NCBI GenBank assembly: GCA_947258435.1
Contig: CAMYID010000008.1
Span: forward strand, 1 to 64,000
Length of the DNA: 64,000 nucleotides
Reading direction: 5' to 3'
Source of the DNA: an uncultured Alphaproteobacteria bacterium
GTDB lineage: Bacteria > Pseudomonadota > Alphaproteobacteria > UBA11222
A program made the translations under genes and the position numbers. The notes under the pieces are model-generated. The model was given only the letters and a program-made list of their open reading frames with translations, was not told where the DNA came from and ran no database searches. Positions 43,433 to 60,633 of the stretch are shown here, one piece after another. Each line of letters starts with the position of its first letter. The first letter of the stretch is position 1.

Positions 43433-45067
43433 CTATTCCGCACCCCCCAGATCAAGTCCCGCAAGCGCCGCCGCATATGCGCGCCAGCGCCCGACCGCAC
43501 GGCTATTGATTTCTTGCCCTTGCTGCAGGCTGCTTGCGGTGACAGGGGCATAATCGGCTGCGGGCCGCGCCAGCAACCCGTCATGCCATTCAAGGTTCAG
43601 GTGAGCGAAAATCGCTTTCGCTCCGGCCTCGGGCGCGGCAACCAGATCCTCATAGCAGATATCGAAAACCCGAAGCGGCAATACCTGCCGCCAGTGCGCC
43701 ATCAGCCTGCGATAGCCACGATAGAAGCATGCGATATCCGCAAGGCGATAACTCCAGCTCAGATTGCCCGTGAAATTCTGCGTATAACAGGACCAGACCA
43801 CATCGTGGGGATCACGCATGCAATGCAAAATCACGGCATCTGGAAATAGCCGCGCGATCAGGCCGAGATGCAGAAAGTTAAGCGGCATCTTATCGCTGAC
43901 CCATGCTGCATCGGCATCGATTTGCGACAGACGCGCGAGATAACGCGCCGCCAATGCCCTGCGGCGCTTTTCAGGCATTGCCGCCAACGCAGCGGGGTAC
44001 CCGCCGGCCTGCTCCGCAACAAGCGCCATTTCAGCCAACTCGCCCCCGCCCGTGACCGCCGCATGACGGGCAAGCAGCCCCTCGACCAAAGTCGTGCCCG
44101 ACCGGGGCATACCGAGGATGAAAAGCGGCCGCCGGCCCGGTGGTGCATCCCGGTTGACCGGTTGCTGTCGGAAATGATCGGCCGGACTTGCCGCGATGAT
44201 CGCATCAATTTGCGCCCTGAACGCCGCGGAGCTGAACGTCTGACCACGGGCTTTCGCAGCTTCGGCACCATAGCGGTTGAATGCATCGAAATGCTGCCGC
44301 GCCTGCGCAAATTCACCGGCCGCGTCAGCCTGCATCGCCAACACATGATGAATCTGCCCGCGCGCAGCCGGTGACAATGCCCGGTCATCGGCACGCGCGC
44401 CAAACCGTGTAATCAGCGCTTCAGGCACCCGAATGCCCGCCTTGATCGCTTGCCCCAACCCGTAAAACGCCTTGATATGTGCCGGATCGCACTCTAACGC
44501 CGCAGTATATGCGGCAACCGCGGCCACCGCATCGCCGGCCGCCGCCTCAATATTGCCGCGCGCATAAAGTAGCGCGGCTGAATTGGGGGCCATCGCCTGC
44601 GCCGCCTGCAATACTGCCCGCGCCTGGGACATGCGGCCTGCATTCTTCAGAGCATTGGCAAGATTAAGCTGAAACCCCGCTGAAGCGGGCGCGGCGGCAA
44701 CCGCGCGCTCAAAGGCCTCAAGTGCCGGGCCGACCTCCCCCAAAGCCTGATAGGCCAGCCCAAGCCCGTTGTGAATGCCCGCATCCTGCGCGCCCCGGGA
44801 GAGCGCCTTATCAAAGGCCCGGATCGCCGCGCGGTTCTCCCCGGCCTGAAGCCGCGCGAGCCCCAGCTCGGCAAAGACCGCACCCCCCTCACCCCCCGAA
44901 TCCTGACGCACCGCCTTTTCAAGCAACCGCACCGCGCGCGCGAAATCACGCGACGCCATTGCCCCGCCGGCCTGTCTGCGCAGACTGTTCGCCCGGCCCT
45001 TCTTTCCCGCCAGGCCCTCCGTATTTCGGGCGCGCCCCACTGGCTTATCTGAGCTGATTTTTCCCAT
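43433..45067 (-). CDS. TPR protein with sulfotransferase domain
   Basis: A 544-residue protein. TPR repeats occupy about residues 30-255 (RAVRLLEKAVRQDSGGEGG, AIRAFDKALSRGAQDAGIH). A PAPS-dependent sulfotransferase domain follows with the 5'-phosphosulfate loop LFILGMPRSGTTLVEGLLAR, and the 3'-phosphate region VILHCMRDPHDVVWSCYTQ. TPR-sulfotransferases are common in marine alphaproteobacteria; the acceptor is unknown. The ATG at 45067 is preferred; a start at 45115 is possible. The recombinase of the adjacent mobile element reads into its first codons. Confidence 0.86.
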   Translation of the reverse strand: MGKISSDKPVGRARNTEGLAGKKGRANSLRRQAGGAMASRDFARAVRLLEKAVRQDSGGEGGAVFAELGLARLQAGENRAAIRAFDKALSRGAQDAGIHNGLGLAYQALGEVGPALEAFERAVAAAPASAGFQLNLANALKNAGRMSQARAVLQAAQAMAPNSAALLYARGNIEAAAGDAVAAVAAYTAALECDPAHIKAFYGLGQAIKAGIRVPEALITRFGARADDRALSPAARGQIHHVLAMQADAAGEFAQARQHFDAFNRYGAEAAKARGQTFSSAAFRAQIDAIIAASPADHFRQQPVNRDAPPGRRPLFILGMPRSGTTLVEGLLARHAAVTGGGELAEMALVAEQAGGYPAALAAMPEKRRRALAARYLARLSQIDADAAWVSDKMPLNFLHLGLIARLFPDAVILHCMRDPHDVVWSCYTQNFTGNLSWSYRLADIACFYRGYRRLMAHWRQVLPLRVFDICYEDLVAAPEAGAKAIFAHLNLEWHDGLLARPAADYAPVTASSLQQGQEINSRAVGRWRAYAAALAGLDLGGAE

Positions 45068-46790
45068 CCCCGCAGCATAGGGGCGCAGCGTGGGGACGCA
45101 ACTGTTCACAACCACTTGTCAACGGCATTTCATTTGAGTAGGTTCCGCCCCTGACTTGAGCGGTTCCGGCATTTCGCCTGCACCGCCCAACACGGCGCCG
45201 GTAGCTCAGCTGGATAGAGCACCAGACTACGAATCTGGGGGTCGGGAGTTCGAATCTTCCCCGGCGCGCCATCTCCATTTCACCCCTGCAAATATCCCCT
45301 AACGCCTTGAACGGTAAGGATATTTCTGGTGTTCGAAACCCCGAATTTCGGCAATACGCCAGTTGGTCCTTGAACGCGAGTTTGAGGACCGTTTGACGGT
45401 GCTCAATCCTTCCCTTTTTCCAAAGATTCCAAGGGTTTGACAAGAACGTCATCGAGTGTTCGAAAGTCTCCTCGTAGGTCTGCAACGGCTTGCCGCAATT
45501 TTTGATCCTCTCACGGAGGACCATGCGCTCCATTTCCAAATTGCCGATGCGCTTCTCGTAAGCTTTGATGACAGATTCGCTGTCTGTTTCGACCAGCCGA
45601 TCCATCAGTTGTTCAATTTTCCGGTCGATCTGGGACAGCTCAGCTTTCATCGACTGCCCCTGCGCTTTCATGGTCAGGGCACGCTGATCCCAGAGATCGC
45701 GGAACAGTGCCGAAGCCCGTTCGAATAACTCTGGTGTGGGACGCAGTGATTGCAGCAGCGCCTCGAATTCCTCCTCTACCACCTCGCGACGGATCGATTT
45801 GCCTTTCGCCGCGCAATCTTTCTGGCGGCACAAATAGTAGGGATAATGCGCCGCCTTGCCCTTTGACCAGTTGGCGGTCAGAGGATTGCCGCAGCAGCCG
45901 CAGAGGACGAAGCCCCGCAACGGGAAATCTTCGTTGATGTCCTTACGTGCCGGAACGCGCGCTTTGCCATTCAGGCGGTCCTGGATCGTCTTGAAAGTCT
46001 CAAGGCTGATCAGACCTTCATGCTGGCCGGGCCGCAACGAAACATCCCACTTCGGCAGTTCAAGATAGCCTGCGTAGAGTGGTTGCGTCAGAAAATCATT
46101 CACGCGTTGGTTCGTCACTTCGCCGCGCGGTGTTTTCGGAAATTCAGGTTGAGATTCGAGAAAGCGCTTCACTTCAGCCTGCGTTGAGAAACGCCCGCTG
46201 GCATACCCTTCGAGCGCTTCTTTCATGATCGAGGCCAACGGCTCATCACGACGAAGAACTTTCCCTTGTCCTGACGCACGCTCGTAACGGTAGCCGACAG
46301 GCGCATGAAAGACCCAATAGCCATTCATCGCGCGGGCTCGCATCCGGTTCTTGGTCTGCTCGGCGTTCTTCTCGCGCTGGTGCTGCGCGAATGTCGCCAT
46401 CATGTTTTCGACCATGCGGGAGTCCGCATCGTCCTTGAATTCCATACTCGGGCTGATGAGCTTCCCGCCTGCCTCGCGCAGAAGGTCTCTCAGGTCGAGA
46501 TGACCGCGCAGGTCGCGTGCGAAGCGGCTGATATCGTCAATGATCACCATCCGCTCGTCGTTGCGGTGCGCCTTGAGGTGCTTCAACATCGCCAACATGC
46601 CGGGTCGGTCGTTGCGTCCCCCGGTCATATCGTCACGGAAGACCTCGACCACCTCAAAGCCCCTGAACGCAGCAAACTCCCGGCAGCGTGTTTCCTGGGA
46701 AGCAAGGCCGGTTCCACGGATCGTTTGCTTTACGTCCGATACACGGCAGTAAATGACAGCTTTATTGTTGTTTCCTTCGTTTTCTTTCAT
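45045..46790 (-). CDS. Large serine recombinase (integrase) reading out through tRNA-Arg
   Basis: Site-specific integrase/excisase. The resolvase domain holds the catalytic serine S18 in YCRVSD, with SRFARD and GKLISPSMEF. The Recombinase domain (about 165-300) is followed by a zinc ribbon (LCGCCGNPLTANWSKGK through CRQKDC) and a coiled-coil (about 360-440). Residues 507-581 (ARRGRFELPTPRF onward) are the antisense of tRNA-Arg and its upstream DNA, so the present C-terminus is host-derived. The ATG at 46790 has AAGGA before it; a GTG at 46802 would overlap the small gene upstream. Confidence 0.93.
   Translation of the reverse strand: MKENEGNNNKAVIYCRVSDVKQTIRGTGLASQETRCREFAAFRGFEVVEVFRDDMTGGRNDRPGMLAMLKHLKAHRNDERMVIIDDISRFARDLRGHLDLRDLLREAGGKLISPSMEFKDDADSRMVENMMATFAQHQREKNAEQTKNRMRARAMNGYWVFHAPVGYRYERASGQGKVLRRDEPLASIMKEALEGYASGRFSTQAEVKRFLESQPEFPKTPRGEVTNQRVNDFLTQPLYAGYLELPKWDVSLRPGQHEGLISLETFKTIQDRLNGKARVPARKDINEDFPLRGFVLCGCCGNPLTANWSKGKAAHYPYYLCRQKDCAAKGKSIRREVVEEEFEALLQSLRPTPELFERASALFRDLWDQRALTMKAQGQSMKAELSQIDRKIEQLMDRLVETDSESVIKAYEKRIGNLEMERMVLRERIKNCGKPLQTYEETFEHSMTFLSNPWNLWKKGRIEHRQTVLKLAFKDQLAYCRNSGFRTPEISLPFKALGDICRGEMEMARRGRFELPTPRFVVWCSIQLSYRRRVGRCRRNAGTAQVRGGTYSNEMPLTSGCEQLRPHAAPLCCGDGKNQLR
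45195..45271 (+). tRNA. tRNA-Arg (anticodon ACG), integration target
   Basis: A 77-nt tRNA: acceptor GCGCCGG/CCGGCGC, discriminator G, encoded CCA, T-loop TTCGAAT, and anticodon loop CTACGAA with anticodon ACG. It reads CGN arginine codons after A34 deamination. Its 3' end is the left junction of the mobile element: the serine recombinase gene abuts and reads through it on the other strand. Confidence 0.96.
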
Positions 46791-46798
46791 CGAATCCT

Positions 46799-47059
46799 TC
46801 ACCTTTCCGCAGGCGGGGCCGCAGTCTCTTCTTCGTCACATTGTTTTGCTTTTGTTCCTATCCTAGCATAGTGCGCCGTCGCTGAAAGTGATTTGTGTGT
46901 CGTCTTTTGCCTCGCAAGCTGAGCTGGATGGACTCCCCAAGCGGCATCGATGAACGCTGACATGATCGCTGATAACCTGTGGATAAGGTCATCGGCTTGC
47001 TCGTCGGTATAGCCGAGCGCTTTGAAGGATTGCCGATGTTTTTTTACTATCTCTTTCAT
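46799..47059 (-). CDS. Small protein of unknown function, upstream of the recombinase
   Basis: An 86-residue, helix-rich protein (KKHRQSFKALGYTDEQADDL, LSAIMSAFIDAAWGVHPAQL) that ends 8 bp before the recombinase start. It is not recognised. Its position suggests an excisionase/recombination-directionality role or a regulator, as in other serine-integrase elements, but no HTH is obvious. The ATG at 47059 has GGAG 8 nt upstream; a TTG at 47086 would add nine residues. Confidence 0.62.
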   Translation of the reverse strand: MKEIVKKHRQSFKALGYTDEQADDLIHRLSAIMSAFIDAAWGVHPAQLARQKTTHKSLSATAHYARIGTKAKQCDEEETAAPPAER

Positions 47060-48110: not shown

Positions 48111-49718
48111 TTAGGAGGGTCGATAGCCCTCGACATAAGACCAGGTGCCGGAGGTATATTGCGGGTACTGTGCAAAATGCTGCGGCACGGTTTGCGTGAC
48201 GATCCTCGCACGGCGTTGCCCCCATCTTGAGGGGATAGGCACGGAATCGTGCGGCGGATGGAACGGATTGGGCAGGAAGCGGCCCGCGAAATCCCCGCGC
48301 GTGTAATAGGGATGCTTTTCGGCGAAGACGGGCTTCAGGTTCTTTCCTGAGATAAAGAGGATTTGGCGGTCCTCGGGCATCGACAGCACCTCTTCAGGCA
48401 TCATCAAGGCACGGGCCTGTTTGGTCCGGTTGGTTTCGGCGAAGGCGTGGTATTTCATATCGGCATAGGCCGAGAACGGATCGCTTCCGTTCATGATTCC
48501 CAGTGCAGCATTGAGCTTCTGGCGTCGTGCATCGGCCTGACGCAGGCCGTCATCATATTCGAGCGTTTCGGTGCCAAGCATCGAAGAGACCATCTGCGCG
48601 GTTTGGTAGTCACGGACACCGAAGAACTGGCGCAATGCGGCGGACCCCATAAAACCCTGCAATGCCGGAGCGCCGAAGTTGCGCACGATCTGTCCGACAT
48701 CCTGAAACAGTGCCCAGGTCCGTAAACCCGCACCACGTCCGAAGGTGAAGGCGCGCAACAGCGCCTCGAAATTGCCGAGCTGTCCGGCCTCATCGATGAT
48801 CATGTTCACAGGCGGCGCGGATGGCGCGCGCGACTTATAGAGCATCTGCACCGTGAACATGGTGCGTAAGATTGGCGACCACAGCCCGACATACTCAATC
48901 GGCACATTGATCGCCCAGCTCGTTGCTTGGTGCGCATCGCAGGTGTCGGCAAGCGACGCATCGGCGTTATCGAGCGAGGCCAGCAACATCGGGTCATCGA
49001 GAAAGTTCAGATGGGCGTATAGCTCACCGATGATCGAGCCGAATTCTTTCTCGCTCTCCTGCTGCTTGGCCAGCATCTCGCCAGCGGTTCGGCGAACGCT
49101 GTCCATAGAGGAACCCAACATGCATTCGAGGCAGTCGGCCCAGCGTTGCGTATCGGATTCAATCCAGTTGATGACGCGATAGAGCGAAGGGAAGCTGACG
49201 CGCCCTGTCGTCTCGACCAGCATCTTGATGATGTTTTCAACCCACTCGCGCGCCCGCAGCTCGAAATACCGCCCGTTGGATGCGCCGCTCGCCGGGATCA
49301 GGCTTTCGGCGATGAACTTGCAGTCCGCATGGAAGTGCGGGTCATTCAGTTTGAGAATATCGAGCGGGTTCATCCGGTGTTGCGGCAGGCCACGCATGCC
49401 TGTCGGGTTCCAGCAATAAAGGTAGCTACGCTCAAATGCGAAATTGACCATCGTGACCGAAGCGATTTCGCCACGCGGGTCGAGGATGAAGTTGCGCCTG
49501 CCCGCATTGCGCGCGACGGCGAGCGCGAGCAGGTCGCGCATCTTGCCCGAGCCTGCACCGGCGATAGTGATGATCGGCGCATCGGTTTCGAGGCAGAGCG
49601 GCTTGTTTGAGGCGTATCCGATTTGCAACCCGCGCCCGTTCATCAGGCCCGCGCGCTTGAGATCATGCTCGTTCGCCCAGGATGCCGATCCGAAACGGTA
49701 TTCCTCATTGTCATACAT
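48111..49718 (-). CDS. TraG/VirD4-like type IV coupling protein
   Basis: A 535-residue conjugation ATPase candidate that would link a relaxosome to a type IV secretion channel. The nucleotide-binding region is IAGAGSGKMRDLLALA (52-67): K59 is kept but the residue after it is M, not Ser/Thr, and the first loop Gly is Ala. The DPRGE motif and Walker B VNMIIDEAGQLGNFEALL are present, as is RTWALFQDVGQ. No N-terminal transmembrane segment is seen, unlike classic VirD4, so it may rely on the small membrane proteins encoded upstream. ACAGGAG lies 9 nt before the ATG. No relaxase is in the window. Confidence 0.88.
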   Translation of the reverse strand: MYDNEEYRFGSASWANEHDLKRAGLMNGRGLQIGYASNKPLCLETDAPIITIAGAGSGKMRDLLALAVARNAGRRNFILDPRGEIASVTMVNFAFERSYLYCWNPTGMRGLPQHRMNPLDILKLNDPHFHADCKFIAESLIPASGASNGRYFELRAREWVENIIKMLVETTGRVSFPSLYRVINWIESDTQRWADCLECMLGSSMDSVRRTAGEMLAKQQESEKEFGSIIGELYAHLNFLDDPMLLASLDNADASLADTCDAHQATSWAINVPIEYVGLWSPILRTMFTVQMLYKSRAPSAPPVNMIIDEAGQLGNFEALLRAFTFGRGAGLRTWALFQDVGQIVRNFGAPALQGFMGSAALRQFFGVRDYQTAQMVSSMLGTETLEYDDGLRQADARRQKLNAALGIMNGSDPFSAYADMKYHAFAETNRTKQARALMMPEEVLSMPEDRQILFISGKNLKPVFAEKHPYYTRGDFAGRFLPNPFHPPHDSVPIPSRWGQRRARIVTQTVPQHFAQYPQYTSGTWSYVEGYRPS

Positions 49719-52981: not shown

Positions 52982-53580
52982 TGTGCCACTCGGTCTAGAA
53001 CCACGTTCTCCTTCAAATACTGCTGTGCGTCATGCATCTCCGTTTTTCCCTGTTTTATCAATAAGTCCGACCCGCAAGATGTGCGGTGTAGTACACCGCA
53101 ATCTTGGCAAGGGAGCCCGCTGCGCGCTCCCGTTGCATCCCTCCGGCTCGTGGCTCTTACAGGGGATCGACCCCATTCCAGAGCCATTAGACCGTATCGC
53201 CGGTCAATCACTCGCAAGGAGACTTCGCTCTCCCTGCACCCATCGATCAAAGGGACTATCGCGCCCCTTATGAAATCCACTCGTCAGGGTAATGGCCCCC
53301 GACACCCGCCAGTCAGGGGAGCGTTCCTGCTCCCCCCGACACCCCCAAGACCATTTCATGGAGACGCTTTCAGCGCGACCAACCCTGCGCGGTTTGGATG
53401 CCGATCAGGCCTGTCGCGACCCGATACCTACGACCAAGAGCCTACCCGTGCTCTTTGGATACATGGGCCAACCTTGCGCAGGTTGGAGTGCGTCTGTGGA
53501 AAACTCCACATCTTGTGCAACGCATGGTGCACCGCACTAATCAAGCTGCTATCCTTTCCCAAATGTAGAAGAGGTATGCA
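52982..53580. other. Non-coding region upstream of the defence operon
   Basis: No convincing gene in 599 bp. Short open frames here lack ribosome sites and protein-like composition. The region holds a near-perfect 32-bp palindrome (below), a GGGAGC/GCTCCC hairpin (53107-53130), and two small hairpins close to the methyltransferase gene: CCAACCT/AGGTTGG (53468-53486) and TGTGGA/TCCACA (53495-53510). The promoter of the operon must lie here or just before it. Confidence 0.6.
53075..53106. repeat. 32-bp interrupted palindrome
   Basis: CAAGAT-G-TGCGGTGTA-G-TACACCGCA-ATCTTG: 15 complementary base pairs around a single central base with one unpaired G (53081). There is no T-tract, so it is more like an operator or recombination site than a terminator. 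Confidence 0.8.
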
Positions 53581-55380
53581 GTGACTGAGCTGAATTTCAA
53601 AGGCAAAGAGTTCGTCTTCAACCACCACTTGGCGGTGCCTTTCCGCCCTTTGGTGCCTGAAGCGAGCAAGGGGATCGGCCCCGTGGCGCTAGACGGCAAT
53701 CTTATCGTGCATGGCGATAATCTGCACGCCCTCAAAGCGCTTCTGCCGCTCTATGCTGGTAAGGTGGACTGCATCTTCATCGACCCACCCTACAACACGG
53801 GCAACGAAGGGTGGTGCTACAACGATAACGTCAACGCCCCCATGATCCGTGAGTGGCTGGAATCCAATCCTATCGGTATCGAGGATGGTCTACGCCATGA
53901 CAAGTGGTGCGCCATGATGTGGCCCAGGCTGCGCCTGCTACATGACCTTTTGTCCGATCACGGGAGCATCTGGATCACGCTCGACGACAACGAGATTCAC
54001 CATGCTCGTAATATGCTGGATCATATCTTCGGTGAAAACTCATTTGTAGGTCAGCTCGCCTGGCAGAAGCGAACATCACGAGAGAATAGAGCGGTCCTCT
54101 CGCCAAGTTTCGATCATATTCTTTTGTATTCGAAAGCGCTTAAAGAGACTTGGAAGATCAGGCGCAATCTTTTGACTCCGAAGGACAGTGGCTACTCAAA
54201 CCCAGATGACGACCCGCGCGGGGATTGGGCGTCTATACCGTTCTCAGCCCAAGGCTACAGAGAAAACCAAGTTTACGAGATAATCACGCCTACGGGCGTG
54301 AAGCACAAGCCACCAAAGGGCAGGTGTTGGGGTGCGACTGAAGAAGAATTTGAAAGGCTTAAGTCCCAGAATTTGGTTTACTGGCCAAAGGGCGGCAACG
54401 GAAAGCCTCGCATCAAGCAGTTCCCAGAAGAAGCCAAGGGCCTTGTTCCAATGACCCTATGGCCTGCAAGCGAAGTTGGGACAACCGAGGAATCCAAGAG
54501 GCACCTGCTGGAAGTTTTCTCCGAGTACGACGAGTCAGATCTCGAAATTCATGCACCGAAGACGGTAGAGCTTATCGAACGCATCATCGAAATTGCTACA
54601 AAAAAAGACTCCATCGTAATGGACTCATTCGCTGGCTCAGGAACAACAGCGCATGCTGTCTTGTCGTCCAACAAGCGCGATGGAGGCAATCGACGCTTCA
54701 TCCTGGTCGAGATGGAAGACTATGCCGACCGTCTTACCGCCGAACGAATGCGGCGCGTCATCAATGGTTATGCCTTCCAAGGTACTCAGCGCACCGAGCT
54801 GCTGCGAGAAAAGTTGACCTGGACCAAGCTCAAAAAAGCCGAGAAGCTGACTGAGGCCGTGGAGGGGATCGAGAACCTACACGGGCACGAATACGACGCC
54901 ATAAAGAAGACGGTGAAAGAAGGTGAGCTGATCGTCATGGGCGAGAAAGCCGTTGAAGAGCGCGCCGAAGGCCTTGGCGGAAGTTTCACTTACTGCACGC
55001 TTGGCGATCCGGTTGAACTGGACAAGTTGCTGAGCGGCGAGACGCTACCGTCCTTCGACGGGATCGGTTCTGTCCTCTTCCACATGGCGACCACCCGCGC
55101 CTTTGACCCGAGCGCAATGCGCGAGGATGATTCCTACCTCGGGGCCGTTGAGGGTCAGCATGTCTGGCTGATCTACAAGCCCGATCTGGACTGGCTCAAA
55201 TCCCCCGAAGCGGCCCTGACACTCAAGCGGGCGAAAGAGTTTGCCGCGACCGATCCAGAGGCGCGGCACCTGGTCTTTGCGCCCGCTCGCTATGTCAGCC
55301 AGAAGATGCTGGCAGAGCAGAATATCCCTGTAGAGTTCGTACCGCTGCCCTTCGCGCTCTATCGCATAGATCGGAGCTGA
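53581..55380 (+). CDS. Type III-like adenine-N6 DNA methyltransferase (Mod)
   Basis: A 599-residue beta-class N6-adenine methyltransferase. The catalytic motif DPPYN is at 68-72 and the SAM-binding FAGSGTT at 350-356, in the order IV-then-I of type III Mod subunits. The target-recognition part lies between them (about 150-320). The C-terminal 170 residues are as in Mod proteins that bind Res. The start is GTG with GAGGT 5 nt upstream. It is followed after 4 bp by the restriction subunit. The specificity cannot be read from sequence. Confidence 0.93.
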   Translation: MTELNFKGKEFVFNHHLAVPFRPLVPEASKGIGPVALDGNLIVHGDNLHALKALLPLYAGKVDCIFIDPPYNTGNEGWCYNDNVNAPMIREWLESNPIGIEDGLRHDKWCAMMWPRLRLLHDLLSDHGSIWITLDDNEIHHARNMLDHIFGENSFVGQLAWQKRTSRENRAVLSPSFDHILLYSKALKETWKIRRNLLTPKDSGYSNPDDDPRGDWASIPFSAQGYRENQVYEIITPTGVKHKPPKGRCWGATEEEFERLKSQNLVYWPKGGNGKPRIKQFPEEAKGLVPMTLWPASEVGTTEESKRHLLEVFSEYDESDLEIHAPKTVELIERIIEIATKKDSIVMDSFAGSGTTAHAVLSSNKRDGGNRRFILVEMEDYADRLTAERMRRVINGYAFQGTQRTELLREKLTWTKLKKAEKLTEAVEGIENLHGHEYDAIKKTVKEGELIVMGEKAVEERAEGLGGSFTYCTLGDPVELDKLLSGETLPSFDGIGSVLFHMATTRAFDPSAMREDDSYLGAVEGQHVWLIYKPDLDWLKSPEAALTLKRAKEFAATDPEARHLVFAPARYVSQKMLAEQNIPVEFVPLPFALYRIDRS

Positions 55381-55384
55381 GCCC

Positions 55385-57991
55385 ATGAGCACTAGCTTCC
55401 GACAGCTCGACTATCAGGACCGTGCGCTTTCTGCTTTGGAAGGCTATCTCGACGCGCTCAAGGAGAAGAAGGGCAGAGCGGACAAGATTGCGGGGCTTGC
55501 AGCCGCCGATCCCGACCTTGGCCTCGCCATTCCCGACTTTACCAAAGAGGCGTGGGAGGTTCTTGGCGGAGCAGGGAAGATGCCCGCGTCCCGCGCGGCC
55601 ATCCCCTTTTCGCCCAGGATTGACGGATGTGGACGCCCTGTCCCGAACGCTGTGCTGAAGGTGCCTACGGCAGGCGGCAAGACATGGCTTGCCATTTCAT
55701 CGGTGTCGCGGATCATGGGGCGCTATCTTGACCGCAATACGGGCTTTGTCCTGTGGATCGTGCCGAACGAGGCAATCTACACCCAGACATTGAAGCACCT
55801 CAAGAACCGTCAGCACCCCTATCGGCAAGCGCTCGACCGCGCAGCTGCAGGGCGCGTGAAGATCATGGAGAAGACCGACCGTCTCGATGCACGCGACGTG
55901 GACACCAATCTCTGCGTCATGCTTCTCATGCTGCAATCGGCCAACCGAGAGACCCAGGATTCCTTGAAGATGTTTCAGGATCGGGGCGACGTGCATGGCT
56001 TCTTCCCGCCCGAGGGCGAGCAGCAGGCGCACAAGGCGGCGCTCGACGCCACGCCGAACCTGACCGCCTATGACGATATGTTCCCAATGGTGAAAGATTC
56101 CCTTGGTAACGCCCTGCGGATCATCCGCCCCGTTGTCGTGCTAGACGAGGGGCACCGCGCCATCTCCGATCTGGCGTTCAAAACGCTCTATGGCTTCAAC
56201 CCGTGTTTCGTGTTGGAACTGACCGCGACGCCGCAGGACGTACAGCCGCGCGGCGGCAGGAATCCCCGCGACGGGCGCTATGCCAATGTCCTGGTCGAGG
56301 TAACGGGGCGAGAGCTGGATCGTGAGGGCATGATCAAGATGCCACTCAATCTCGATCCGAAGCAGGGCAACGACTGGAAGGCCACGCTGAACGCAGCCCT
56401 TGAGAAGCTCCGCGCGCTCGACGCCTCGGCAAAGACGCTGCGGGCCGAAACCGACCGCTATATCCGCCCGATCATGCTGGTTCAGGTCGAGCGGACGGGC
56501 GCGGATCAGCGCGAGAGCAATCATATTCACGCCGAAGACGTAAAGGACTGGCTCAAGACAGCGGGCTTAGATGACGCCGAAATCGCTATCAAGACCGCCG
56601 AGCAGAATGATCTATCACAGCCCGAGAACCAAGACCTTCTGTCCCCTACGAACCGTGTACGCGTGATCATCACCAAACAGGCCCTTCAAGAAGGTTGGGA
56701 TTGCCCCTTTGCTTATGTGCTCTGCGCTCTGGCCGCCAGTAACAACGAAAAAGCCATGACGCAGCTTGTTGGACGTATCCTGCGCCAGCCAGGTGCCATG
56801 AAGACAGGAGTTGAGGCGCTTGATGAGTGCCATGTGATTACCCACCATGCCGATACCGCCTCGGTGGTCGAGGCCATCAAGAAAGGTTTGGAACAGGATG
56901 GTCTCGGTGACCTAGTTCTGAGGGTTAGTCAGGATGATACGAGCGGCAAGACCCGCACGACGCGGACGATCAAACGCCGCTCTGCGTTCGCTTCAACCGA
57001 AATCTACCTGCCCAAGGTTATGATCCTCGAAGACGGTATGCCTCGCGAGCTGGACTATGAGACCGATATCTTGGCCAGTATCGATTGGCGCGGCTTCGAT
57101 CCCGCTCACATTGCGATCAAGATCCCTGACAATGCCCAAGCGGCTGAGAGCCAGCTGCAACGGATCACGCTATCCGAAGAAGGCGATGAACTCTTCGTCG
57201 GTGAGAAGGTCGCACAGAACAATGAGATTCTGGTTTTCGATCCCGCGCATACCGTTCGCATGGTCTCGGACATTCTGCCTAACCCTTTTGTCGCGCGTGA
57301 AGTGGTCGGTCGGCTTCTCGACGCTTTGCGCGGACGTGGCTTTGATGAGGGCAAACTTGGCCGATTTGCGAGCTTGATCAGCGCCGAGCTGCGGCGCGGG
57401 CTGGATATTGCCCGAACGGAGCGCGCGGAAGCACTTTTCAAGGCCGAGGTCGCGGCAGGACGGATTCAGTTTCGTTTGCGTCTCGATGGACGCAACTGGC
57501 GAATGCCCGCCACCATGGAGACGACAGAGCCCGAAGGCGCTCGCCAGCTTTTGAGCAAGTCGGGCGGGCCGCTCGAAAAGAGCCTCTTCGCGCCTGTCTA
57601 TGAGGCCGAGCTGAACAAGGATGAGCGCGACGTGGCCGTCTATCTTGACGGTGAAGAGGCGCTGTCTTGGTGGCACCGCAACGTGGCGCGCAGCCAGTAC
57701 GGCATTCAGGGGTGGAAGAAAGCGAAAATCTACCCCGACTTCATCTTCGCCGTGCAGACCGAAGGTGAGGCAAAAAAAATCACCGTCCTCGAAACCAAAG
57801 GTGACCAGCTTGACAATCTCGACACTGCTTACAAGCGCGAAGTGCTGGCCTTCTTGTCTGAGCACTTCGCCTGGGACGATGCCGTACCGGCGGGTGAATT
57901 GGAACTTGTCCAAAACAACGGAGAAACGGTTGAAGGTACTTTGATTTTGATGAGCGATTGGCGAGCTGCATTACCGGAGCATCTCAAATGA
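55385..57991 (+). CDS. Type III-like restriction subunit (helicase/PD-ExK nuclease, Res)
   Basis: An 868-residue SF2 translocase with nuclease. Walker A VPTAGGKT (93-100), DEGH box (254-257), TATPQ motif III (280-284), QLVGRILRQPG motif VI (from about 460). Near the C-terminus YPDF (D785) and LETKG (E803, K805) form a PD-(D/E)xK active site. The enzyme would translocate on DNA and cut unmodified DNA together with Mod. Its stop overlaps the start of the PHP-ATPase gene (ATGA), so translation of the two is coupled. Confidence 0.92.
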   Translation: MSTSFRQLDYQDRALSALEGYLDALKEKKGRADKIAGLAAADPDLGLAIPDFTKEAWEVLGGAGKMPASRAAIPFSPRIDGCGRPVPNAVLKVPTAGGKTWLAISSVSRIMGRYLDRNTGFVLWIVPNEAIYTQTLKHLKNRQHPYRQALDRAAAGRVKIMEKTDRLDARDVDTNLCVMLLMLQSANRETQDSLKMFQDRGDVHGFFPPEGEQQAHKAALDATPNLTAYDDMFPMVKDSLGNALRIIRPVVVLDEGHRAISDLAFKTLYGFNPCFVLELTATPQDVQPRGGRNPRDGRYANVLVEVTGRELDREGMIKMPLNLDPKQGNDWKATLNAALEKLRALDASAKTLRAETDRYIRPIMLVQVERTGADQRESNHIHAEDVKDWLKTAGLDDAEIAIKTAEQNDLSQPENQDLLSPTNRVRVIITKQALQEGWDCPFAYVLCALAASNNEKAMTQLVGRILRQPGAMKTGVEALDECHVITHHADTASVVEAIKKGLEQDGLGDLVLRVSQDDTSGKTRTTRTIKRRSAFASTEIYLPKVMILEDGMPRELDYETDILASIDWRGFDPAHIAIKIPDNAQAAESQLQRITLSEEGDELFVGEKVAQNNEILVFDPAHTVRMVSDILPNPFVAREVVGRLLDALRGRGFDEGKLGRFASLISAELRRGLDIARTERAEALFKAEVAAGRIQFRLRLDGRNWRMPATMETTEPEGARQLLSKSGGPLEKSLFAPVYEAELNKDERDVAVYLDGEEALSWWHRNVARSQYGIQGWKKAKIYPDFIFAVQTEGEAKKITVLETKGDQLDNLDTAYKREVLAFLSEHFAWDDAVPAGELELVQNNGETVEGTLILMSDWRAALPEHLK

Positions 57992-60633
57992 GCGAAACTT
58001 TTCAAGCGTCGTTTGAGCATGGGGCACAATGGTTAAGAGCCGACTTCCACTTGCATACGAGGGCGGATAAAGAATTTTCCTACGACGGAGAGGACGATCG
58101 CTTCGTTGCTAGCTACGTTGCAGGCCTCCAAACAGCAGGGATTTCCTTAGGGGTTATCACAAATCATAACAAGTTCGATGCGGGTGAATTCAAAGCCCTG
58201 CGCAAGCGTGCGCGCAAGGTCGGGATCGGTTTGCTTCCTGGCGTCGAATTATCGGTCAACGACGGCGCAAACGGTGTGCACACGCTCGTTGTGTTCTCAG
58301 ACGACTGGCTGGCTGACGGCCATGACTACATCAACCAATTTCTTGGTGTAGCCTTTTCCGGCAAGGTTGCCGCGCAATATGAGCAAGAGAATGGACGTAG
58401 CAATGATGATCTTCTTGATACACTAAAAACACTAGAATCTTACAATCGCGATTTCTTCATCGTTTTTGCCCATGTCGAGGCCAATAGCGGCCTTTGGCAC
58501 GAACTTGGCGGCGGAAGGATGCAGGAGCTCGCCGCTGAACCCTTGATCCGTAAATACGCGCTTGGCTTTCAGAAGGTACGTAGTCACGACAAGCCTGACG
58601 CTGTATGCCGCACTAAAGTTCAAGATTGGTGGGGGACCACATATCCTGCCGAAGTCGAAGGTTCCGATCCAAAATCCATTGAACAAATCGGCAAGGGCCA
58701 GAAGAGCTATCTCAAGCTTGGCGATCTTGGGTTCGACGCTGTAAAATTCGCGCTAACCGATCATAAGTTCCGCCTTTCCACGGAGGTCCCAACTGTGGGG
58801 CACTCCCATGTCAACGCCATTCGTTTTGACGGCGGCCTGCTCGATGGTAAGCGAGTCACTTTCTCACCCCACCTCAATTGCCTAATCGGAATTCAAGGCA
58901 GCGGAAAGTCTTCAATCCTTGAGAGCGTGCGTTACGCGCTCGACATTCCCTTTGGGGATAAGGCGCAGGACAAAGAATACAAGAACGGCTTGTTGCCATA
59001 TATTTTAAAAAGTGGCGGCAAGATCATCGTCGAAGCAACGGACCGGCGTGGCGAGAAGTTTGAAGTCAGCCGCATTTGGAATCATTCTCCCGATGTGTAC
59101 GTCGGTGGCGCGTTACGCCCAGGTGTCTCGATCAAAGAAACGATCATCGCAAAGCCGCTTTATTTCGGACAGAAAGACCTTTCTGCCGCCGGAAAAGGCT
59201 TTGGGCACGACCTTGTTGAGAAACTGATGGGCGATGGGCTGAAAACAGTCAGGCAGACAATCAGTGAAAAGGTCGAAGAGCTCGAAACTGCCGTTGAGAA
59301 CTTTCTTTCCGTTCGCAGCGATGCTGAGGACAAACAGGTCCTCGAAGAGGATTTGAAGGACGTTGAGTTCAATTTGGAAGCCTTCGACAAACACGGCGTT
59401 AAAGAAAAGCTGGAAAAGCAAATCTCTTATAGTGATGATCTTACCTATTGCGAAAGCATCGACGAGATTGCCTCCGCCTGGCACAAGGTTATTGACGATG
59501 CTGAAAAAGAGGCTGAGGAAAACTTCAAGCAATTGGAGGCACATAGCTCCGACCACAATGCGGAGTTTTTCACCCGCTATGAAGCAAAGCTCAAGGAACT
59601 CAAGAACACTTTGGCGACCGCAAAAGTGCTAGCCACTACGATCAAATCCAAGTCCACCGAGCTCGATACGCTTCGCAAAGAGCTGGAAGGCGTTCGGGAC
59701 GGATTGAAGGAGGAGTTCGCAGAGACAGAGCGCGAACTAGTGAAGGCGCTTGAAGAGCAAGGTGTAACGTCCATCCAGCCAGATGCCTATATCAAACTCA
59801 CAAAGCGCAAGCAGGAGCTAGATGCGCAGATCGCCGACCTTGCCAAGCGAACTGGTAAAGAGAAGTCCAAACGTGACGCTGTCCTGACTGCGTTGAGCGC
59901 CCTGAACGATGCGTGGCATGACGAGTTCAAACTGATCGCCGCTGCGTTGAAGACCATTAATGAATCCCAAGGATCCTTGAAAGTTGAGAGCGAATTCAAG
60001 GGAGATCGTACCGCCTTTAAAGGACACATCGACGCTCTTTTCCGTGGCCACAACCTACGGAAGGACTACTATGAATCGCTTGCGAAGGCGTATGCGGATT
60101 TTGGTGAAGTGTTCAAGGATTTTGAGACAGCCGCAACTCACGCAAAAGGCAAATCGGAGGAGTTTAAGAAACTCTATATCGAGAATTTATTCGGATTGCT
60201 CAGCTATCAGGTGCCAAACAGCTATTCTGTGACGTATCACGGCAAACCGCTGACTTCGCATTCACTCGGCCAACGTGCTTCGGCTATGATGCTCTTTTTG
60301 CTTAGTCAGGAAGGGAATGATCTTCTTCTCATCGATCAACCCGAAGACGATCTCGACAGTCAAACTGTCTACGAGGAGGTCGTTAAATTGCTCAGGCAAC
60401 TTAAGCTCGACCAGCAGTTTATCTTCGCAACCCATAACGCCAATTTTCCAGTGCTCGGGGATGCGGAAACCATCACCACTTGCAGCGCACGCGATGATGA
60501 AATCACTGTTTCGGTCGGGAACATAGACGACAAGGCCTGCCAGGCGAATGTCATCTCTATCATGGAGGGTGGCCCCGAGGCTTTTGAACGGCGTAAAACT
60601 ATCTACCAAATATGGAGGTCCGATGAAACTTGA
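57988..60633 (+). CDS. PHP-domain plus SMC/ABC-like ATPase (TrlF family)
   Basis: An 881-residue two-part protein. Residues 17-280 are a PHP phosphoesterase domain: DFHLHTRAD (H21, H23), TNHN (about 58), LPGVELSVNDG, and FAHVEANSG provide the metal ligands. From about 290 an ATPase starts with Walker A GIQGSGKSS (301-309), then a long charged coiled coil (about 410-720), and the second half with LLLIDQPEDDLDSQ (about 779-793, Walker B and D-loop) and IFATHNANFPV (H-loop). NCBI calls such proteins TrlF; a similar architecture is the Ppl defence protein. The gene is third in the Mod-Res operon. Confidence 0.9.
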   Translation: MSETFQASFEHGAQWLRADFHLHTRADKEFSYDGEDDRFVASYVAGLQTAGISLGVITNHNKFDAGEFKALRKRARKVGIGLLPGVELSVNDGANGVHTLVVFSDDWLADGHDYINQFLGVAFSGKVAAQYEQENGRSNDDLLDTLKTLESYNRDFFIVFAHVEANSGLWHELGGGRMQELAAEPLIRKYALGFQKVRSHDKPDAVCRTKVQDWWGTTYPAEVEGSDPKSIEQIGKGQKSYLKLGDLGFDAVKFALTDHKFRLSTEVPTVGHSHVNAIRFDGGLLDGKRVTFSPHLNCLIGIQGSGKSSILESVRYALDIPFGDKAQDKEYKNGLLPYILKSGGKIIVEATDRRGEKFEVSRIWNHSPDVYVGGALRPGVSIKETIIAKPLYFGQKDLSAAGKGFGHDLVEKLMGDGLKTVRQTISEKVEELETAVENFLSVRSDAEDKQVLEEDLKDVEFNLEAFDKHGVKEKLEKQISYSDDLTYCESIDEIASAWHKVIDDAEKEAEENFKQLEAHSSDHNAEFFTRYEAKLKELKNTLATAKVLATTIKSKSTELDTLRKELEGVRDGLKEEFAETERELVKALEEQGVTSIQPDAYIKLTKRKQELDAQIADLAKRTGKEKSKRDAVLTALSALNDAWHDEFKLIAAALKTINESQGSLKVESEFKGDRTAFKGHIDALFRGHNLRKDYYESLAKAYADFGEVFKDFETAATHAKGKSEEFKKLYIENLFGLLSYQVPNSYSVTYHGKPLTSHSLGQRASAMMLFLLSQEGNDLLLIDQPEDDLDSQTVYEEVVKLLRQLKLDQQFIFATHNANFPVLGDAETITTCSARDDEITVSVGNIDDKACQANVISIMEGGPEAFERRKTIYQIWRSDET

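Follow-up and report, generated by a model that had tools for sequence, protein, structure and literature searches.

A stretch of 64,000 nucleotides from an uncultured Alphaproteobacteria bacterium (hereafter the window) carries a gene for a PHP-domain ATPase directly behind a type III restriction pair, raising the question of whether the third protein acts with Mod and Res as one system, as a sequence-only reading of this DNA had proposed, or is a separate module that came to be joined to them. The three open reading frames, their strands, the 4-bp gap between mod and res and the ATGA overlap between res and trlF are exactly as that reading had given them:

about 53566-53573, + strand: purine-rich agaagagg, resembling a ribosome-binding site, upstream of the mod GTG
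53581..55380, + strand: mod, encoding a 599-aa N6/N4 DNA methyltransferase of type III (beta-class order), with a GTG start
55385..57991, + strand: res, encoding the 868-aa restriction subunit of the type III system, with an SF2 translocase and a C-terminal PD-(D/E)xK nuclease
57988..57991, + strand: ATGA overlap of the res stop codon and the trlF start codon, possible translational coupling
57988..60633, + strand: trlF, 881 aa, PHP phosphoesterase with an SMC/RecF/Rad50-type ABC ATPase

The PADLOC and NCBIfam scores agree with the gene content first read from the DNA, a type III Mod-Res pair and a PHP-SMC ATPase in one apparent transcription unit, where co-transcription is judged from the gene spacing only. 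Promoter-like sites across the region were not more numerous than expected by chance. Mod was assigned to MTase_III (749 bits) and Res to REase_III (613 bits), and for both proteins, as for TrlF, the scores exclude chance as the source of the family matches. The methyltransferase, DEGH and PD-ExK motifs reported earlier are present, and the catalytic motifs are intact. Mod has DPPY at residue 68 followed by FAGSGTT at 350, which is the beta-class order; Res has PTAGGKT at 94, DEGH at 254, PD at 784-785 and ETK at 803, and its nuclease residues D785, E803 and K805 are invariant in all six sequences compared. With mod and res adjacent, a beta-class Mod with a central recognition region and a Res that combines SF2 and PD-(D/E)xK domains, the pair is by its sequence features a complete type III restriction-modification pair. 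A central stretch of mod (about 54030-54999) found no match in Allosediminivita, whose Res is 94% identical, although the DNA on both sides of it matched, which suggests an exchanged target-recognition region. In comparisons with DNA relatives the central part of mod, at about 54030-54555, is flanked by matching ends.

The third protein matched the NCBIfam model of TrlF (NF045780) with 551.4 bits against a cut-off of 350 (6.5e-165), residues 11-874 being aligned to positions 1-944 of the model. Ppl (NF042955), which has a similar architecture of PHP and ATPase domains, was rejected, with a score of 145 bits against a cut-off of 1000; thus of the original label "TrlF/Ppl-like" only the first half is retained. 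The PHP domain occupies about residues 1-265 and the ATPase head lobes about 270-415 and 664-881, with an antiparallel coiled coil (416-660) between them. An AlphaFold model of moderate confidence (pLDDT 68, from a 4-sequence alignment) likewise has a PHP-like domain at the N-terminus, a pair of ATPase lobes and a coiled coil. A Foldseek search with this model retrieved the heads of MukB, SMC, JetABC, RecF, Rad50 and Lamassu LmuB, as well as the PHP phosphoesterase 3o0f; a sequence search of the PDB found no full-length relative. The DFHLHT motif (H21/H23) and the Walker A lysine K307 lie where the sequence-only reading had placed them. Residues D19, H21, H23, H60, E87, H98, H162 and D227 are invariant in all 17 close homologues, which also keep the Walker A, signature, Walker B and H-loop motifs.

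If the three proteins form one system, the order mod-res-trlF should recur among relatives. An alignment of six Res sequences led to 80 genome loci among the matches listed, at 41-94% identity; Res could be called in 78 of these, of which 60 had at least 3 kb of sequence downstream of it. Mod precedes Res in almost all of the 78 callable loci. Among these listed matches TrlF never follows Res (0/78, including 0/60 of those with at least 3 kb downstream). TrlF is absent altogether from 77 loci, and the order mod-res-trlF from all 78; the exception, a Pseudomonadales MAG, reads TrlF-TrlG-Mod-Res, with TrlF upstream of mod and from a distant clade. None of the 54 loci listed on viral contigs has TrlF near the Res relative. 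TrlF was found in 39 and the window's Res family in four of the 399 genomes sampled from the phylum, and only the window's own genome has both.

The sequence-only reading had itself suggested counting how often mod and res lie directly upstream of TrlF homologues. The count is 0 of about 45 other copies, and these copies have no type III genes beside TrlF at all. A conserved mod-res-trlF linkage therefore failed from both the Res side (genomes and viral contigs) and the TrlF side (phylum sample and plasmids), and a conserved trio was rejected. This survey drew on samples and on the matches listed, not on all public genomes and metagenomes, and absence among the sampled relatives is compatible with a functional coupling of the window trio alone.

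The neighbours of TrlF elsewhere are diverse. The closest TrlF among the matches, 79% identical, is on Sulfitobacter plasmids, with a DarTG-like pair upstream, conjugation genes in the context and no restriction genes. The next closest (58%), from Vibrio tubiashii, follows the gene of a RecB-like nuclease, and brxL is close by. Klebsiella, E. coli and Aeromonas have the order hsdR-trlF-trlG-hsdS with an ATGA overlap at hsdR. Other copies lie behind an MmeI-like methylase, helicase and GIY-YIG genes (L059), behind two type II-like methylases (L032) or inside hsdM-hsdS-AAA-trlF-trlG-hsdR (L168), and plasmids of E. coli (IncF/IncI), Edwardsiella, Citrobacter and Listeria carry TrlF without an evident restriction partner. 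The window, Sulfitobacter and Vibrio proteins form one fully supported clade in the tree, with three different contexts, namely type III genes, DarTG and conjugation genes, and brxL with the RecB-like nuclease. Since one supported clade spans three contexts and the neighbours differ elsewhere too, TrlF moves between hosts. Its commonest companion, in more than half of the neighbourhoods read, is a downstream TrlG-type gene (SLFN_AlbA_2 and HATPase_c_4). Neither trlR nor trlG is adjacent to the window trlF, and the window genome as assembled (95% complete) has no SLFN_AlbA_2 gene.

The tight overlap had been taken as a mark of partnership with Mod-Res. TrlF, however, has the same ATGA overlap with HsdR at three loci (L035, L086 and L173) and lies behind hsdS with a 4-bp overlap at another (L053). 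Because TrlF overlaps HsdR and HsdS too, the overlap is not specific to Mod-Res, and a tight gene overlap should be read with caution, as it is not proof of a joint system.

The res/trlF junction itself was located by DNA comparison. Homology of res to more than 10 relatives stops at 57961-57962, about 30 bp ahead of the stop codon, and trlF matches Sulfitobacter DNA over 58012-60616; a plasmid record extending across the junction was not found. As DNA homology breaks there from both sides, the junction is, to judge from these alignments, modular. The gene after Res differs in nearly every relative: 33 of the 43 next genes on the same strand are singletons, so that a fixed gene after Res was ruled out. 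A search with phmmer, which recovered SMC-like ATPases near Mod-Res that a regular-expression search had mostly missed, showed two other kinds of such proteins beside this type III lineage. The exception to the varying gene after Res is an LmuB-like SMC ATPase of 832-877 aa, which begins 233-235 bp after Res in four loci (L088:7998-13328, L098:7998-13323, L143:7998-13321 and L107:2-4794), the spacing in L098 being obtained after allowing for a longer called start. From res through the ATPase these loci share 85-93% DNA identity and represent three independent loci, since L107 and L143 are nearly identical; within the upstream DNA that was compared, similarity ends near the mod start. By this comparison Mod-Res and the LmuB-like ATPase make up what looks to be a mobile, conserved trio of type III. 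SMC-like ATPases of the candidate-defence family PDC-S06 occur at L087:8361-10973, L090:12261-14954 and L084:3705-6305; two of these loci have the ATPase gene in convergent orientation, and in Chryseobacterium it lies immediately ahead of mod.

The reading that we favour, with a probability of about 0.6, is that a tRNA-integrated island carries a type III Mod-Res pair to which a modular TrlF gene has been attached directly downstream, TrlF serving as a separate second layer. Its main rival is a guard or backup function, in which TrlF would sense failure or inhibition of the type III system, or the DNA ends or stalled translocases that it produces, and respond by abortive infection, by analogy with PrrC/EcoprrI, RloC and PARIS. 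Such a function would fit the repeated occurrence of TrlF within several types of restriction operon, where reading frames overlap, and the SMC/Rad50-like ATPase architecture that TrlF has in common with RloC, a protein that reacts to DNA breaks. The known precedent is PrrC, whose gene is embedded in a type I locus (PMC12707154), and BREX loci have linked backup nucleases that include Schlafen RNases (PMC12839542). However, TrlF often occurs without any restriction system, as on the Sulfitobacter, E. coli IncF/IncI, Edwardsiella and Listeria plasmids, and the locus lacks TrlG, the Schlafen RNase partner that would be the more likely killer, so we regard a guard as rather unlikely for this locus. 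A variant of the same idea starts from the slot beside this type III lineage, which is used by LmuB-like, PDC-S06 and TrlF ATPases; these could be interchangeable parts of a guarded type III system, in which the ATPase would monitor the products or the failure of Res and trigger a second effector. This we consider unlikely.

An obligate partnership, in which TrlF would be a physical or functional subunit of Mod-Res, has in its favour the 4-bp gap and the ATGA overlap, the chance-level number of promoter-like sites and the precedent of Mod-Res with another SMC-like ATPase as a mobile trio at three independent loci. Against it, the trio is conserved from neither side, similar overlaps occur with unrelated upstream genes, and Mod-Res pairs without TrlF are the rule. 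With Mod-Res kept in 78 relatives and TrlF behind it only in the window, the joint system proposed from the sequence is unsupported, and we hold it to be highly improbable. The opposite extreme, that a defence hotspot gathered two unrelated modules and that the overlap is functionally meaningless, is in line with the modular junction and the ever-changing gene after Res. An ATGA overlap nevertheless requires exact joining, and the several overlaps of TrlF with restriction genes suggest selection for co-expression, which makes mere adjacency very unlikely. From the earlier interpretation we thus keep the Mod-Res pair, the PHP-SMC ATPase, the mobile element and a plausible extra effector, but neither the conserved linkage nor the joint system.

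According to the favoured reading of TrlF as a second layer, Mod-Res would restrict unmethylated DNA by itself, and TrlF, made from the mod-res message, would act without contact to it. In TrlF, a DNA-sensing ATPase probably gates the activity of a PHP phosphoesterase: the SMC/Rad50-like ATPase would clamp a structure of invading or damaged DNA (ends, forks or loops), and an ATP-driven rearrangement would activate the PHP domain, which would then degrade nucleic acid or nucleotides. Co-regulation and co-transfer would be the selective reason for placing TrlF on restriction operons; a backup on restriction failure, as with PrrC or DarTG, whose genes lie within type I operons, might be an added one. 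The PHP site has its own peculiarity. Residue 59 is N (TNH) in 17 of 17 close proteins and D in 10 of 10 distant ones, and residue 229 is K (DxK) in 16 of the 17 close proteins and H in 6 of the 10 distant ones; on this alignment N59 and K229 are a clade-wide alteration of the PHP metal site. Because the site is non-canonical (TNH for TDH, DxK for DxH), the PHP activity of TrlF is uncertain.

TrlF was named in the temperature restriction locus trlR-trlF-trlG of Photorhabdus, where mutations were found in trlG and none in trlF (PMC7554251). The window protein resembles that of the TRL operon in its full-length NF045780 match and its PHP and SMC-ATPase architecture, but lacks trlR and trlG beside it and sits behind type III genes instead. 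The same study counts against a defence role, as this sole studied locus is tied to temperature-restricted growth with trlF unmutated (PMC7554251), and the literature searched yielded no experiments that report phage defence by TrlF. Type I loci with an embedded pair of an "AAA-like ATPase + RNA-binding protein" between hsdS and hsdR have already been published (PMC12255303). IncC/IncA plasmids (hsdR-trlF-trlG-hsdS-AAA-hsdM) and RptR-linked islands share with the window a TrlF joined by ATGA to the gene of a restriction translocase-nuclease, but differ in having a type I host system and a TrlG. Relatives in the type III families PDLC03640 and PDLC03653, for example in Allosediminivita pacifica (Res 94% identical), have the same Mod-Res order, spacing and motifs but lack TrlF; in A. 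pacifica an SMC-like ATPase of the PDC-S06 family, in convergent orientation, is present instead. PrrC and RloC are effectors of the ABC ATPase type that act as guards or companions of restriction systems (PMC12707154); they are anticodon nucleases whereas TrlF has a PHP domain, the relation to TrlF being one of ATPase class. What is new here is the type III host of TrlF in a TrlG-less genome, as the pair embedded in type I loci was already known. TrlF is bound to no single restriction class, being found with type I, type II, MmeI-like and type III genes, as a BREX neighbour or alone, so that it is most sensibly studied as a module that is portable. A locus that has TrlF in a genome without the Schlafen partner offers an uncomplicated setting in which to study the PHP-ATPase on its own.

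The claim that the locus lies inside a mobile element was borne out by a homology break at a tRNA gene and by the following genes:

45195..45271, + strand: tRNA-Arg (acg), left edge of the island
45045..46802, - strand: ORF of a large serine recombinase at the edge of the island; the part encoding its C-terminus overlaps tRNA-Arg, which is on the other strand
48111..49718, - strand: type IV secretion coupling protein (VirD4/TraG type), inside the island

DNA homology to a genome of the same genus reaches as far as 45285, just past tRNA-Arg, and restarts at contig position 68922, from which we infer an island of about 23.6 kb; the comparison is with one genome, whose two flanks are on separate contigs, one of them ending near the tRNA. 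Five other genomes of the order gave no match to TrlF. A direct repeat of the tRNA end was not found as a right border, apart from a statistically non-significant 12-bp match, at contig position 67221, to the 3' end region of tRNA-Arg (window 45267-45278), which might be the right attachment site. The end of a Paracoccaceae type III Mod-Res locus is near a stretch that shares 87% identity with the window tRNA-Arg (L109:10595-10797), hinting at a common integration site.
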